Source of the DNA: Shimia sagamensis
Lineage (GTDB): Bacteria > Pseudomonadota > Alphaproteobacteria > Rhodobacterales > Rhodobacteraceae
Direction of reading: 5' to 3'
DNA length: 64,000 bases
Assembly: GCF_900182745.1 (NCBI RefSeq)
Contig: NZ_FXTY01000002.1
Coordinates: 372,001-436,000, forward strand
Under the pieces are notes generated by a model. The model worked only from the letters and a program-made list of their open reading frames with translations. It made no database searches and had not been told where the DNA came from. Position numbers and translations under genes: made by a program. How positions within the stretch are numbered: the first letter of the stretch is position 1; every line of letters begins with the position of its first letter. Positions 36,355-42,642 of the stretch are shown piece by piece.

Positions 36355-38304
36355 ATGGCCGATATTTCCCTTACTTTTCCTGATGGTAACGCACGTTCTT
36401 ACGAGAGCGGCACAACCCCTCTTGAGGTCGCATCGTCGATCTCAACCTCCCTTGGCAAAAAGGCCATTTCCGCAACTGTGGATGGCCAGCATTGGGACCT
36501 GCAATGGCCAATTGAAGCTGACGCAACCATTGCGATCAACACCCTCAAGGACAGCGACGTCGAAGCACTGGAACTGATCCGGCACGACTGCGCCCACATC
36601 ATGGCCCGCGCTGTGCAAGAACTCTGGCCTGACGTGAAAGTCACCATTGGTCCTGTGATTCAAAACGGCTGGTACTACGACTTTGACCGCGAGGAGCCGT
36701 TTACCCCCGAAGATCTCAGCCGCATCGAAAAGAAGATGAAAGAGATCATCAACAAACGTGAGCCTGTGACCACCGAAATCTGGGACCGTGATCGCGCCGT
36801 TAAGTTCTACGAGGCCAACAACGAGCCGTACAAAGTAGAACTGATCGAGTCCATTCCCGGCGACGAGCCGCTGCGCATGTACTGGCATGGCCACTGGCAG
36901 GACCTCTGCCGCGGCCCACACCTGCAACACACCGGTCAGGTGCCTGCCGACGCCTTCAAACTTATGTCCGTGGCAGGTGCCTATTGGCGTGGCGACAGCG
37001 ACCGCGCGATGCTGCAGCGAATTTACGGCGTTGCCTTCAAAAACAAAGAAGACCTCAAAGCCCACCTGCACATGCTGGAAGAGGCCGAAAAACGCGACCA
37101 CCGCAAGCTGGGGCGCGAAATGAACCTGTTCCACATGCAGGAAGAGGCCCCTGGTCAAATCTTCTGGCACCCCAACGGCTGGCGCATCTACACCACTTTG
37201 CAAGACTACATGCGTCGTAAGCAGGAAGCTGGCGGCTATGTTGAGGTGAACACGCCTCAGGTGGTTGACCGCAAACTCTGGGAAGCCTCAGGCCACTGGG
37301 ACAAGTACCAGGAAAACATGTTCATTGTGGAAGTGGACGAAGACCACGCCCGTGAAAAGGCTGTGAACGCGCTTAAGCCTATGAACTGTCCTTGCCACGT
37401 GCAGGTGTTCAACCAAGGTCTGAAGTCATACCGTGACCTGCCCCTGCGCATGGCTGAGTTTGGCTCCTGCGCCCGTTATGAACCCTCCGGCGCGCTTCAT
37501 GGCATCATGCGTGTGCGCGGCTTTACTCAAGACGATGGTCACATCTTCTGTGCCGGCGATCAGATCACCTCGGAAACCAAGAAGTTCATCGACTTCCTAT
37601 CCGAAATCTATTCTGATCTGGGCTTCAACGACTGGACCATCAAACTGTCCACCCGCCCGGAAAAGCGTATCGGAACGGACGAAAGCTGGGACTACGCAGA
37701 GAAAGCTCTGGGCGACGCTTGTAATGCAGCTGGCCACGAGTTTGAAATTCTTGAAGGTGAAGGCGCGTTTTACGGCCCGAAACTTGAGTTCACCCTGACC
37801 GACGCCATTGGCCGGAATTGGCAGTGCGGCACGCTCCAGGTGGATCCAAACCTGCCGGAACGTCTGGACGCCAGCTACATTGGTGCGGATGGCGACAAAC
37901 ACCGCCCCATCATGTTGCACCGCGCCACCCTCGGCTCTTTTGAACGCTTCATCGGCATCCTGATCGAGGAACACGCGGGCAAACTGCCGTTCTGGATCGC
38001 CCCACGTCAGGTAGTTGTGGCCGCAATTGTGTCTGATGCCGATGAGTACTGCCTTGAAGTGGTCGAAGCATTGAAAGCCGTTGGCGTGCGTGCCGAGGCT
38101 GACCTGCGCAATGAAAAGATCAACTACAAAGTCCGCGAACACTCCGTGGGCAAAGTGCCGGTGATCTTGGCGATTGGTAAGAAAGAGATCGAGGAACGCA
38201 CGGTCTCCACCCGCCGCCTTGGCGAAAAGCAAAGCAAAGTCCAGTCTTTGGACGAAATCGTGAGCCAATTGTCACAAGAGGCAACGCCACCCGATTTGGC
38301 CTAA
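36355..38304 (+). CDS. thrS: Threonyl-tRNA synthetase
   Basis: The 649-residue class II synthetase charges tRNA-Thr. In order it has the TGS domain ([20 protein letters not shown]), the editing domain with [17 protein letters not shown] and the class II motifs, including [35 protein letters not shown] and [15 protein letters not shown]. The anticodon-binding domain is at the end. The open frame begins at 36259, but the ATG at 36355 gives the standard N-terminus and follows GAGGAGCTTGAGGCTA. A terminator follows the gene. Confidence 0.97.
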
Positions 38305-38321
38305 CAGCTTTTGCAACATTT

Positions 38322-38360
38322 CAGCAGGCGCGTTACGGGAAACCGGGCGCGCCTGTTTCA
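38322..38360 (+). terminator. Terminator after thrS
   Basis: CAGGCGCG (38325-38332) and CGCGCCTG (38348-38355) pair across a 15-base loop, followed by TTTCAATTTT. Confidence 0.7.
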
Positions 38361-38380
38361 ATTTTGAAGGAAAATCAACC

Positions 38381-38394
38381 TTCCAGCGCTGGAA
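38381..38394. promoter_or_regulatory. Palindrome upstream of the bufferin operon
   Basis: TTCCAGCGCTGGAA is a perfect 14-base palindrome, 166 bases before the first precursor start at 38560. It is a candidate operator; the regulator is unknown and no sigma/anti-sigma gene is next to the operon in this window. Confidence 0.4.
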
Positions 38395-38559
38395 TCTTCA
38401 CGAAACCGTCACGCCATCTAACGCGTCTGTGACACACAGCCCCGTGATTGGCCTTTGAAGCGCGCTCCGACCTAATCTCTACTCATGCCACCGAGCAAAC
38501 GATCACACACAGATCAGCAAGGCGGCCGAGTTTTAGACATTCACAAGGGAAGAGAACCA

Positions 38560-38865
38560 ATGTCCAACACCGTAAAAACCCTCGCAGTAGCAAGCGCCGT
38601 AGCCGCAGCCCTGTCCGCACACGCCACCACCGCTGTGGCCGCTGAAAAAGAGAAGTGCTACGGCGTTTCCCTCGCAGGTCAGAACGACTGCGCCGCCGGC
38701 CCAGGCACAACATGCGCCGGTACATCCACTTCCGACTACCAAGGCAACGCTTGGAAACTCGTTGATGCGGGCACCTGCGCCTCTATGGAACTGCCAGCCA
38801 TGGCAGACGGCAAAGCCCGCATGGGCTCTTTGGAAGCGCTGGAGCGCGACCTGCCAAAGTCCTAA
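38560..38865 (+). CDS. bufA1: Bufferin precursor peptide, DUF2282 (first copy)
   Basis: The 101-residue precursor has a Sec signal peptide ending about residue 28 (TTAVAAEK) and the core [20 protein letters not shown]. Its cysteines are Cys33, 44, 52 and 73. This is the DUF2282 (BufA1) signature. In characterised bufferins an MNIO enzyme converts core cysteines to thiooxazole-type rings, and the exported product binds copper. The start at 38560 follows GGGAAGAGAACC; an open frame to 38485 is ignored. A stem-loop separates this gene from the second precursor. Confidence 0.9.
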
Positions 38866-38876
38866 GTCAGACTTTC

Positions 38877-38900
38877 GAAGCCCCGGTGCGCCGGGGCTTC
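38877..38900 (+). promoter_or_regulatory. Stem-loop between the two bufferin precursor genes
   Basis: GAAGCCCCGG and CCGGGGCTTC form a 10-base stem around TGCG. No T-run follows (ACCCAAAC), so it may stabilise a short bufA1 transcript or act as a partial terminator rather than a full stop. Confidence 0.6.
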
Positions 38901-38991
38901 ACCCAAACACCCCAAATCACACAAAAAATGCCATACTGCCCCTGAGTTTATGTTCGTTTTTGCCAACGCTTCTGTTTCAGGATCCAAAGTC

Positions 38992-39294
38992 ATGACCCAT
39001 TCCATCAAAACACTCCCTCTCTTTAGCGCCGTTGCGACCGCGCTGGCCTTACAGGCTGCACCTGCCGACGCAGCTAAAAAGGAGAAGTGCTACGGTGTAG
39101 CCAAAGCTGGTGAAAATGGATGTGCCGCAGGCCCCGGCACCACTTGCGCCGGCACTTCGACTGTCGATTACCAAGGAAATGCTTGGACCCTTGTGGAGTC
39201 TGGCACCTGCCTCGACATACCTTTGCCCGCCATGGCGGACGGCGCCCCTCGCACGCCCTCACTTGAGGCCTTGCCTCGTGACCTACCCTCTTAA
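38992..39294 (+). CDS. bufA1: Bufferin precursor peptide, DUF2282 (second copy)
   Basis: The 100-residue paralogue of the preceding gene product has a signal peptide ending near residue 28 and the same core: Cys33, 44, 52 and 73, giving C-X10-C-X7-C-X20-C in both copies. The block [14 protein letters not shown] is invariant, whereas the signal peptide and C-terminal tail differ. The start at 38992 follows AGGATCCAAAGTC; the longer open frame from 38950 spoils the signal peptide. It is followed 11 bases later by the modifying enzyme gene. Confidence 0.9.
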
Positions 39295-39305
39295 GGATTT
39301 ACCTG

Positions 39306-40163
39306 ATGTATGATGCGCCACACCCACCCAAAGGCCTGCCCAACTTGCCTGGTGTCGGCTATAAGCCGCAGCATTATAATGACTTGATCGCCAATCCTGG
39401 CTCAGTCGGTTGGCTCGAAGTCCATGCAGAAAACTACATGGGAGACGGGGGGCGCCCCATTGCGCAACTGCGGGAACTCACCAAACGCTTCCCCATCTCG
39501 GTGCATGGTGTCGGGCTCTCAATTGGTGGCGAAGGCCCATTGGATTCTGCACACCTTGCCCGTCTGAAACACCTGGTCGATTGGCTCAATCCCACTGTCT
39601 TCTCTGAGCACCTGGCCTGGAGCACCCACGATGGGGCCTTCCTCAATGACCTGCTCCCCCTGCCTTACACAGAAGACACACTCACCCGCGTTTGCGATCA
39701 CATCGACGAATTACAAACCACTATTGGGCGGCAGATGATGCTGGAAAACCCCTCCAGCTATCTGGCCTTTGACGAAAGCACTTTGTCTGAGCCGGATTTC
39801 CTGCGTGAGGTGGCAAAGCGTACAGGTTGCGGCCTGTTGCTGGACGTGAACAACGTCTTTGTCTCCGCAACCAACCTGAACTACGACCCAAAGCAATACA
39901 TCTCCGACTATCCGCTTGAACATGTGAGGGAAATTCACCTCGGCGGCCACGACGAGGACGAAGACGACCACGGCAAACCGCTGCTGATTGACAGCCACGG
40001 TGCGCCTATTGTTGATCCGGTTTGGGCATTGCTCGACCACACGCTGGCATTGTCTGGTCCGCGCCCCATCCTGATCGAATGGGACACCGATGTGCCTGAG
40101 TGGCCGATCTTGCACGCCGAAGCCGAACGTGCGGAAACCGCCCTATCAAAGGTGACGGCATGA
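39306..40163 (+). CDS. bufB: MNIO-family (DUF692) bufferin-modifying enzyme
   Basis: The 285-residue multinuclear non-heme iron oxygenase has a TIM-barrel fold. Likely iron ligands are all present: [10 protein letters not shown] (Glu38, His40, Asn43), SVHGVG (His67), SEHLAW (Glu101, His102), LENPSSY (Glu147, Asn148), LLDVNNV (Asp180, Asn182), HLGGH (His211, His215), DSHG (Asp229, His231) and IEWD (Glu258). Family enzymes oxidatively rearrange cysteine residues of the precursor in the cytoplasm before export. It is coupled to bufC by an ATGA overlap. Confidence 0.93.
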
Positions 40164-40912
40164 CTGTCACGCAAACCACTTTTCGGAGCGCCATTTTGGA
40201 CAGCCAACAGGACCGACCACTTGGTTTGTCCGACGCCGAAGGCCAACCTGCGGGACGCCGGTTTGACGTCTACCGCAACAATGTGGCGGTCTCCCTCACC
40301 GACGCGTTGGCAACCGGTTTTCCAACCATTGCGAAACTCATCGGCGATGAGAACTTCAACGCCATAGCAGGTATTTTCCTGCGCCAATCCCCCCCGGCTT
40401 CACCTTTGATGATGCACTATGGGGCGGGTTTCCCGGACTTCCTACGCGACTTCGAACCCCTCGCGCATCTCGGCTACCTCGGTGACGTGGCAGACCTCGA
40501 ACTCGCACTGCGCCAAAGCTATCACGCCGCCGACACGCCGCCGATCGAGCCCGATGCGCTGGCCGCGATACCGCCGGAACAGCTTGGTGATGTCACTTTC
40601 ACCTTTGCACCGGCAGTCTTGGCCTTTCAATCACCATGGCCTTTGCACGCTATTTGGGCTTTCAACATGCAGGATGGCCCCAAACCCGAAGCTATCGCGC
40701 AAGACGTGATCATCCTGCGTCCGGAGTTTGATCCGGAACCACATGCCCTGCCGCCTGGCGGCTATGTATGCCTGACCAGTTTGCGTGCGGGTGACACGCT
40801 TGGCGTCGCAGCTACCAAAGCCACCGAAGCAGCCGCCACCTTTGATCTTGGCGCGCTCCTCACTTTACTTATGTCGGGCAACGCCCTGACTTCCATTACT
40901 ATTTCGACATAA
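40160..40912 (+). CDS. bufC: DUF2063 bufferin partner protein
   Basis: The 250-residue protein has the DUF2063 N-terminal domain: [18 protein letters not shown], then [20 protein letters not shown] and [18 protein letters not shown] beta-rich C-terminal part follows. In bufferin and related MNIO systems this partner helps the enzyme recognise the precursor, as a RRE-like subunit. The old label of putative DNA-binding domain is not supported by anything I see. It starts inside the stop of bufB, so the two are made together; doxX follows 12 bases later. Confidence 0.9.
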
Positions 40913-40924
40913 CCGGAGGTCTCT

Positions 40925-41449
40925 ATGTCCAATCTCATCACCCTCTATCAAGACCTCATTGACCGCTTAAGTCGCCTCGACTGGCTGGTTCCGACTTTGG
41001 CGCGCCTGACCTTCCTGATGGTGCTGTTTTTCTACTTCTGGAACTCTGCGATGCTGAAAATCGATGGTTCGATCTTTTCTCCGTCCGCTGGTGCCTTTGG
41101 CCAGATCTTCCCGAAAGCCGCCGAAGCTGTGGTCTGGGATGTCTCTCAAATGAACCTTTTCCAACGCCTGGTGATCTTCGCCGGCACAGTTGCGGAGTTT
41201 GTGCTTCCAGTACTGATCCTGCTCGGTTTGCTCACACGACTCGCTGCCATCGGCATGATTGGTTTTATTGCCGTGCAGACGATTGTTGATGTGACAGGCC
41301 ACGGGGTTGCGCTTGGTTCCCTCTTTGACAGCGCGCAAGCCCTGATTGACCAGCGCATGATGTGGGTGTTCCTCTTTGCGGTCCTGGTCCTAAAAGGCGC
41401 AGGCCCGCTTTCACTGGACGCACTGTTTAAACGCCGCGACCCCGCTTAA
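40925..41449 (+). CDS. DoxX-family membrane protein of the bufferin operon
   Basis: The 174-residue inner-membrane protein has four hydrophobic segments with the DoxX features LARLTFLMVLFFYFWNSAML and FAGTVAEFVLPVLILLGLLTRLAA. Its ribosome binding site is CCGGAGGTCTCT. DoxX-like genes accompany many bufferin clusters, where a redox or quinone-linked role has been suggested but not shown. It is the last gene of the operon, ahead of a bidirectional terminator. Confidence 0.9.
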   Translation: MSNLITLYQDLIDRLSRLDWLVPTLARLTFLMVLFFYFWNSAMLKIDGSIFSPSAGAFGQIFPKAAEAVVWDVSQMNLFQRLVIFAGTVAEFVLPVLILLGLLTRLAAIGMIGFIAVQTIVDVTGHGVALGSLFDSAQALIDQRMMWVFLFAVLVLKGAGPLSLDALFKRRDPA

Positions 41450-41466
41450 AGTTTCCGCCAACAAAT

Positions 41467-41498
41467 GAAAAGCCCGCGCTGTTGGCGCGGGCTTTTGA
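41467..41498. terminator. Bidirectional terminator after the bufferin operon
   Basis: AAAAGCCCGCGC and GCGCGGGCTTTT pair across GTTG-like centre bases, with A- and T-runs on both sides. It serves the operon and the convergent gene ending at 41501. Confidence 0.88.
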
Positions 41499-41500
41499 GC

Positions 41501-41815
41501 TTAGATCAAGGCGGCTTGGGTGGCTTTGTCCCACCCCAAATAGAGCACTCCACCCTGCTCAATCAGCGGTCGTTTCATCAGCGCTGGATGCTCAACCAAA
41601 AGCTCCAACACCGGTTTTGCCCGCTCTTCGTCACTCAAATTTCGCCATGTGGTTGAGCGCGTGTTCGCCAAAGCGGCTCCAAACTGTTCAAAAGCCGCCT
41701 TCAGTGTCTCTTCCGGCACTCCTTCGCTCCGCACGTCAATAAAATTCGCATTTTCCAATAACTTCAAAACCTTGCGGCACGTATCGCAATTTTTTAGCCC
41801 ATATAGCGTGATCAT
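41501..41815 (-). CDS. ArsC/Spx-family thioredoxin-fold protein
   Basis: The 104-residue protein begins MITLYGLKNCDTCRKVLKLL, with a CxxC pair (Cys10, Cys13), and continues with the ArsC/Spx helices and LIEQGGVLYLGWDK near the end. It is a stand-alone YffB/Spx-like protein, not a proven arsenate reductase, because the RxxR set of ArsC is not obvious. The start at 41815 follows GAGGGCCAAAA; the open frame to 41872 is ignored. It converges on the bufferin operon. Confidence 0.87.
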   Translation of the reverse strand: MITLYGLKNCDTCRKVLKLLENANFIDVRSEGVPEETLKAAFEQFGAALANTRSTTWRNLSDEERAKPVLELLVEHPALMKRPLIEQGGVLYLGWDKATQAALI

Positions 41816-42311: not shown

Positions 42312-42611
42312 TTAGGAACAGCCCTTAGTGCCCGGCGGGCAGCTCATGCTGTAGCTGCGCTTACGGGAACCACCGGCGTTGTAATACACTTCACCGGTAT
42401 TTGGGTTGCCACAACAAATCACGCCGCCCATGGTCACTGGCTGCAAGCCATTGGGGCAAAAATTTGTGGACGCGGGGTACGGGTGCATCAACATACCCTC
42501 AGGTTGGTTCACGGGACCGATCACCGGCGCATTGCTGCTCCAGGTTTGCGCCGAAATGGGCGCGGCCACGGTCAAAGTTAATGCGGCAACAAGAATGGAA
42601 AAACGCTTCAT
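42312..42611 (-). CDS. Small secreted cysteine-containing protein of unknown function
   Basis: The 99-residue product has a signal peptide (MKRFSILVAALTLTVAAPISAQ) and a short mature domain with six cysteines, including CCGNPNTGEVYYN and MSCPPGTKGCS near the end. The pattern suggests disulfide bonds in the periplasm. The start is ATG at 42611 behind GGAGCTTGGGCCCT; an in-frame TTG at 42620 is rejected. A GGTTAAC/GTTAACC inverted repeat lies 32 bases upstream of the start. No family recognised. Confidence 0.6.
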   Translation of the reverse strand: MKRFSILVAALTLTVAAPISAQTWSSNAPVIGPVNQPEGMLMHPYPASTNFCPNGLQPVTMGGVICCGNPNTGEVYYNAGGSRKRSYSMSCPPGTKGCS

Positions 42612-42642
42612 AGGGCCCAAGCTCCAATGGCTGAAACAACGT

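Follow-up and report, generated by a model that had tools for sequence, protein, structure and literature searches.

A predicted Buf1-type bufferin operon of Shimia sagamensis with a divergent second precursor gene beyond a conserved hairpin

Bufferins are a recently described and very widespread class of copper-binding peptides. Passages of Antoine et al. (2025, PMC12452194) describe Buf1 (DUF2282) bufferins encoded by bufABC(D) operons, i.e., genes for a four-cysteine precursor with a signal sequence, an MNIO maturase, a DUF2063 partner and a DoxX protein; these passages also mention tandem precursor genes, together with the suggestion, put in print as a suggestion only, that one MNIO may serve several substrates. 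Two further systems are similar: gigPABT of Cupriavidus metallidurans (PMC10304878), a single copper-induced operon for a small periplasmic four-cysteine protein, two cytoplasmic proteins and a DoxX-like protein, and the EGKCG captophorins (fontiphorin, HvfABC; PMC13097082), in which an MNIO with a DUF2063 partner installs 5-thiooxazole on cysteines and for which copper detoxification has been proposed. Here we analyze a locus of Shimia sagamensis (Rhodobacteraceae) with the Buf1 genes in the same order and two precursor genes. It starts at position 38,381 of a stretch of 64,000 nucleotides, hereafter the window (contig NZ_FXTY01000002.1, positions 372,001 to 436,000). In our reading, to which we assign a probability of about 0.6, this Buf1-type operon encodes two precursors of unlike dose and chemistry, of which the first would be a bulk copper buffer and the second a lower-dose variant matured by the same enzyme.

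Genes of the operon and their precursor peptides

The genes of the operon and the hairpin between the precursor genes are, in window positions:
38560..38865, + strand: first precursor (bufA), 101 amino acids, with putative signal sequence, Cys33/44/52/73 and Asn-Asp-Cys44; PF10048 (DUF2282), 85.5 bits
38877..38900, + strand: G+C-rich hairpin of 10 pairs with a 4-base loop and no T run, 11 bases past the stop of the first precursor gene
38992..39294, + strand: second precursor (divergent bufA paralogue), 100 amino acids, with putative signal sequence, the same four Cys and Asn-Gly-Cys44; PF10048, 78.5 bits
39306..40163, + strand: BufB, MNIO maturase; PF05114 (MbnB_TglH_ChrH), 349.6 bits; NCBIfam MNIO_BufB (NF050167), 373.9
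40160..40912, + strand: BufC, DUF2063 partner; PF09836, 88 bits; ATGA overlap with the bufB stop
40925..41449, + strand: BufD, DoxX-type membrane protein; PF07681, 26.7 bits, marginal

An earlier, sequence-only reading of the locus had named two DUF2282 precursors followed by DUF692 (MNIO), DUF2063 and DoxX genes, and profile searches bore this out, with scores above the curated Pfam cut-offs (22.4 bits for DUF2282, 25 for MbnB_TglH_ChrH, 27.2 for DUF2063 and, exceeded marginally, 23.6 for DoxX) and above the NCBIfam cut-off of 310 for MNIO_BufB. All five genes lie on the + strand in the order bufA-bufB-bufC plus a DoxX gene, as in Buf1 operons; the spacer between the second precursor gene and the MNIO gene is 11 bases long and holds no hairpin, and the stop of the enzyme gene overlaps the start of the partner gene in the ATGA at 40160-40163, as had also been reported. 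BufB could be aligned to the MNIO structure 3BWW (E = 1.4e-43), and the His, Glu and Asp motifs are retained in this alignment. We take these conserved motifs to be the iron-binding residues. On these family matches the locus is classed as a predicted Buf1-type bufferin operon. The locus did not fit neighboring classes: the first precursor reached 21.2 bits with the BufA2 model, whose cut-off is 60, and the second did not match it (both have four cysteines, not the six or twelve of Buf2), the maturase scored 241.6 against the HvfB cut-off of 360, the DoxX protein fell below the cut-off of the HvfX family, and neither precursor contains EGKCG repeats. Structural searches found no relative of BufC at E 0.1 except two designed proteins and no PDB relative of the first precursor, and PHROGs gave no match for the first precursor or the MNIO.

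The two precursors align without gaps up to the last residue, and each has Cys33, Cys44, Cys52 and Cys73; they are 67% identical overall and 80% identical from Cys33 to Cys73, for which the "near-identical cores" of the sequence-only reading is a loose wording. The identical cysteine spacing, which that reading had singled out, was rejected as a special sign and is the family default: 10, 7 and 20 residues separate the cysteines in 111/111 precursors parsed from loci L032-L141 (one unparsed row, L136, excluded) and in all 41 of the genus set, and 42 of 55 precursors in a class- and phylum-wide set have the same spacing, the remainder being off by one residue. (Loci L002, L003, L027, L028, L029 and L031, which show the same place twice, were dropped from the spacing, hairpin and Asp/Gly counts, and L059 from the latter two.) By eye, both precursors start with a Sec-type signal sequence that ends near residue 28, with no lipoprotein cysteine there, which leaves the proposed difference in product location unsupported. 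The whole genome holds two DUF2282 matches and one MNIO match, all within the operon. With no other MNIO match in the genome, the two precursors, if both undergo modification, have to share this enzyme, and the single MNIO very likely handles both, as had been proposed.

Residue 43, the hairpin and divergence of the two precursor genes

The residue before Cys44 differs between the two kinds of precursor. Among distinct sequences, counted from parses of the cysteine-flanking residues, Asp occupies this position in 121 of the 123 first or single precursors (Glu and Gly in one each), and Gly does so in 14 of 16 second precursors (His and Asp in one each); the tandem pairs of G031 and G341 (all Asp) and two stand-alone copies (His) are excluded from this count. 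Asp also precedes Cys44 in 54 of the 55 precursors of the class- and phylum-wide sample, four of which come from the family of the window, with Gly in the remaining one. All four cysteines and their flanking residues are retained across the clade of second precursors. A thiooxazole is formed from a cysteine and the carbonyl of the preceding residue, so the side chain of that residue would adjoin the ring. Since the central cysteines of Buf1 precursors are the modified ones (PMC12452194, Fig. 3 legend), residue 43 would directly precede the first modified cysteine. Because Gly replaces Asp, the first modified site of the second precursor should either fit the enzyme differently as a substrate or give the bound metal a different environment. 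According to a passage of PMC13097082, residues around the cysteines of DUF2282 precursors are little conserved; the near-invariant Asp before Cys44 disagrees with this at that position.

The second difference concerns the hairpin between the precursor genes, which in the window has a folding energy of -21.4 kcal/mol (z = -2.86; one of 200 shuffles was as good). Counting as a hairpin any stem with a score of at least 22 within 70 bases after the stop (G-C 3, A-T 2, G-T 1, one mismatch allowed), and also excluding L136, any locus that lacked a bufB match and 70-base stretches that were identical, we found this score after 107 of 109 single precursor genes, after 13 of 14 tandem first genes and after none of the 14 second genes. 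The one tandem first gene below the score (L015) has a stem with a longer loop. In the controls, 19 of 261 windows taken at random from the coding sequences of bufB and bufC reached the score, as did three of 76 stretches after bufC. Hairpins beat all 30 of their own shuffles after 85 of the 109 single and 13 of the 14 tandem first genes, and stem sequences vary widely among relatives with the pairing preserved. As there is no T run, a plain terminator is less likely than an element that acts in the processing or stability of the message or that ends transcription in part. Rfam had no match in 38200-41600; the passages of PMC12452194 drawn on here mention no hairpin, stem-loop, promoter or terminator, and a literature search on hairpins and MNIO gave no paper on such a hairpin among the matches listed (best 20 of 1,552).

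Divergence at synonymous sites (dS) also sets the two precursor genes apart. Among seven close relatives, mean dS is 0.37 for the first precursor gene, 1.00 for the second and 1.25 for bufB, and the first precursor gene has the lowest dS in 21 of 21 pairs, although these pairs come from related genomes and are not independent, which weakens this line of evidence for unlike dose. Both precursors are under purifying selection, with ratios of nonsynonymous to synonymous divergence (dN/dS) of 0.04 for the first and 0.08 for the second; decay of the second gene was rejected on the latter value. These dS values fit high expression of the first gene and enzyme-like expression of the second.

Descent of the second precursor and sequence elements around the operon

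An adjacent pair of precursor genes was found in 14 of 25 genomes of the genus, two of which have a third, distant copy. In a sample of the family, DUF2282 occurs in 211 of 295 genomes, five of them with two matches, which are adjacent in four (the genome studied here, G031, G124 and G228) and on separate contigs in G256. G124 and G228, from two other genera, share the layout of the window, i.e., an Asp-type first precursor with its hairpin, then a Gly-type second precursor and a short gap to bufB. The pair of G031 consists of two like copies that group together on the tree (98/95), both with Asp and with the hairpin after the second. All second precursors of the kind found in the window cluster with two stand-alone copies in a single clade (18 rows, with 52 others outside it; support 100/99) that covers three genera and is retained with support 96/94 when the Asp/Gly column is omitted. 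Recent duplication was rejected as the origin of the second precursors, as they form an old clade. The presence of the second gene requires five changes on the bufB and thrS-end trees, four of them forced by well-supported branches, with the reservation that the thrS tree has no clean rooting on the outgroup and includes three thinly filled rows. One gain followed by several losses is the simplest history, and transfer is also possible. Remnants of a second gene in single-precursor relatives were not supported; the long spacers of L004 and L014 beat their shuffles only with the hairpin included. One genome of the same genus (L013) encodes precursors that match those of Shimia marina CECT 7688 (L103) in every residue.

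The two stand-alone members of the clade, L142 (at about 6381, - strand) and L143 (at about 5409, - strand), are DUF2282 precursors with His before the second Cys. No match to the MNIO, DUF2063 or DoxX proteins of the window was found within the roughly 10 kb examined around them; an integrase-like open reading frame was noticed by eye near L142. In a plasmid collection, DUF2282-like precursors matched 251 plasmid records, 60 of which are listed under Escherichia.

Further elements in and around the operon are:
38381..38394, no strand assigned: TTCCAGCGCTGGAA, a perfect palindrome of 14 bases that lies upstream of the promoter region
38419..38449, + strand: operator-like block TRACGNNNNYGTGANNCACRNNNNCGTGANT of 31 bases with repeated CGTG/CACG half-sites, a likely regulator or promoter site
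38929..38937, + strand: TGCCATACT, which may be the extended -10 element of an internal promoter that serves the second precursor gene and the enzyme genes
41468..41496, no strand assigned: terminator-like hairpin of 12 pairs, with a T run on the - strand, between the operon and a convergent arsC-like gene

Of 125 distinct upstream regions (L140 and repeated upstream ends excluded), 100 hold the block TRACGNNNNYGTGANNCACRNNNNCGTGANT with at most four mismatches, among them 96 of the 101 linked to thrS and four of the 24 without thrS, as compared to none of 2500 base shuffles; this recovery is partly by construction, the pattern having been drawn from such upstream sequences. In the genome of S. 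sagamensis it occurs exactly here and once elsewhere with three mismatches, and a backwards control also reaches one match. The palindrome TTCCAGCGCTGGAA is common to many, though not all, of 26 aligned upstream regions, and the 23-base stretch containing it has a single match in its own genome at up to three mismatches. Its TTCC and GGAA are separated by a 6-base gap, presumably one base less than in CueR boxes. A CueR-type box was looked for and not found at the operon; four sites in the genome lie elsewhere, with three mismatches each (control: two strand matches). Regulation through NrsF was likewise rejected, with no match to NrsF (PF06532) in the genome in a search that did not include sigma factors; passages of PMC12452194 place sigma factor and NrsF genes in part of the Buf1 clusters, where they are not required.

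An internal promoter before the second precursor gene is possible and is offered as a lead only. Across the 16 tandem spacers, the best matches to TGNTATAAT sum to 32 mismatches, as compared to a mean of 45.2 for base shuffles, none of 300 of which was as low. Against the extended -10 element, the tandem spacers are interrelated, several being near-copies, and some, as in L021 and L015, have their best match at a different position; a scan of 38300-41600 for sigma-70-type consensus promoters, which found none with 0.9 expected, counts against an internal promoter as well. In relatives within the family, the operon is mostly flanked by thrS upstream and by arsC-like and csp (cold-shock) genes downstream. 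An open frame of 102 amino acids at 42312-42620 on the - strand would encode a small cysteine-containing protein with a signal-like start, and may or may not be a gene.

Mechanism, competing explanations and known systems

We propose that the operon is induced via the upstream block and that BufB, together with BufC, most likely converts Cys44 and Cys52 to thiooxazoles in the cytoplasm, in the first precursor as in the second. The two peptides would then be exported through Sec, each form a Cys33-Cys73 disulphide and hold copper in the periplasm, copper being the ligand suggested by the family. The first precursor would be the ancestral product, made in bulk. Behind its gene, the hairpin probably either stabilizes the bufA portion of the message or ends most transcripts at that point, and far more first precursor than enzyme would therefore be made. 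The second precursor, an old paralogue whose gene lies between the hairpin and the enzyme genes, is probably made at an enzyme-like level, so that it, BufB, BufC and BufD would all be present at a lower level than the first precursor. The hairpin offers a testable answer to how a bulk peptide shares an operon with its enzymes. As the second precursors form one clade in three genera, have lost the Asp before Cys44 and are sited beyond the hairpin, the second precursor does not appear to be a mere copy. The sequence-only reading had allowed for products of different strength; most relevant to strength are two differences that it had not raised, the hairpin that separates the genes and the replacement of Asp43, next to Cys44, by Gly. 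A tentative suggestion, with odds clearly below even, is that one MNIO matures a pair of copper buffers unlike in dose and in metal site: a bulk peptide whose message the hairpin sets apart, and an old, minor paralogue that has no carboxylate next to its first thiooxazole and is adapted to a different copper level, to hand-over or to sensing.

Several observations weigh against two precursors of unlike dose and chemistry. The hairpin lacks a T run, so its mode of action is ambiguous; 24 of the 109 hairpins after single genes fail to beat all 30 of their own shuffles; and such a hairpin is not generally needed, given that it was found in 17 of 36 adjacent bufA-bufB pairs outside the family. Gly is not a strict mark of the second copy either: the second precursor of L013 (same as L103) keeps Asp before Cys44, and two single precursors, L088 and L209, have Gly before the second Cys beside their own MNIO and lie outside the second-precursor clade, so that Gly is tolerated there and does not alone establish a new role. 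Finally, the second gene is absent from 11 of the 25 genomes of the genus, each of which has one precursor gene. This absence, together with the number of changes on the bufB tree, would also suit plain redundancy, in which the second gene would be a spare that only adds to the output of one and the same product and the differences would be neutral, as would the 80% identity of the cores, the four shared cysteines and the independent tandem pair of G031 with its two like Asp copies. We regard redundancy as rather unlikely, as the second precursors are one old clade that shares a change at a near-invariant site and is under purifying selection (dN/dS 0.08), and as a dose booster would be expected to keep the hairpin that second genes lack.

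A ligand or stress other than copper, i.e., another metal or thiol stress, would be in line with the conserved neighbors followed (thrS, arsC-like, csp), none of which is a copper gene, with an upstream block that is not a CueR-type box in a genome where the CueR-box search gave only 3-mismatch sites elsewhere, with the lack of an NrsF anti-sigma gene in the genome, and with MerC fusions of bufferins that hint at other metals (passages of PMC12452194); we consider it improbable, since the reports on Buf1 bufferins and on the related gigPABT operon (PMC12452194, PMC10304878) describe a response to copper or protection against it. The least probable explanation is that modification of the second precursor is confined to Cys52 or does not take place, and that this peptide works as a regulator, as a decoy or as a partner bound to the enzyme instead of as a metal buffer. 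The loss of the Asp before Cys44, the 11-base gap that places the second gene next to bufB, and the stand-alone relatives with His at this site and no matched partner genes within roughly 10 kb could be read in this way. All four cysteines and their flanking residues are nevertheless kept in the second clade, and the single-precursor operons of L088 and L209 suggest that Gly is accepted by the MNIO encoded beside it.

Compared to the known systems, the two precursors of unlike dose and chemistry that we favor extend the Buf1 type. The gigPABT operon differs in having one precursor and a divergent gene for an extracytoplasmic function (ECF) sigma factor (PMC10304878), and the EGKCG captophorins differ in their repeat-type substrates (PMC13097082), the precursors described here having no such repeat and their maturase scoring below the HvfB cut-off. 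As compared to the Buf1 clusters in the passages of PMC12452194 considered, the locus has no sigma factor or NrsF genes alongside (NrsF being absent from the genome), and it has a divergent second precursor with Gly before Cys44 and a conserved hairpin between the precursor genes. Tandem precursors had already been described; the altered second precursor and its position relative to the hairpin are the added features. The operon thereby presents a natural pair, with the same enzyme and the same four cysteines, in which a near-invariant residue is kept in one precursor and replaced in the other across three genera.

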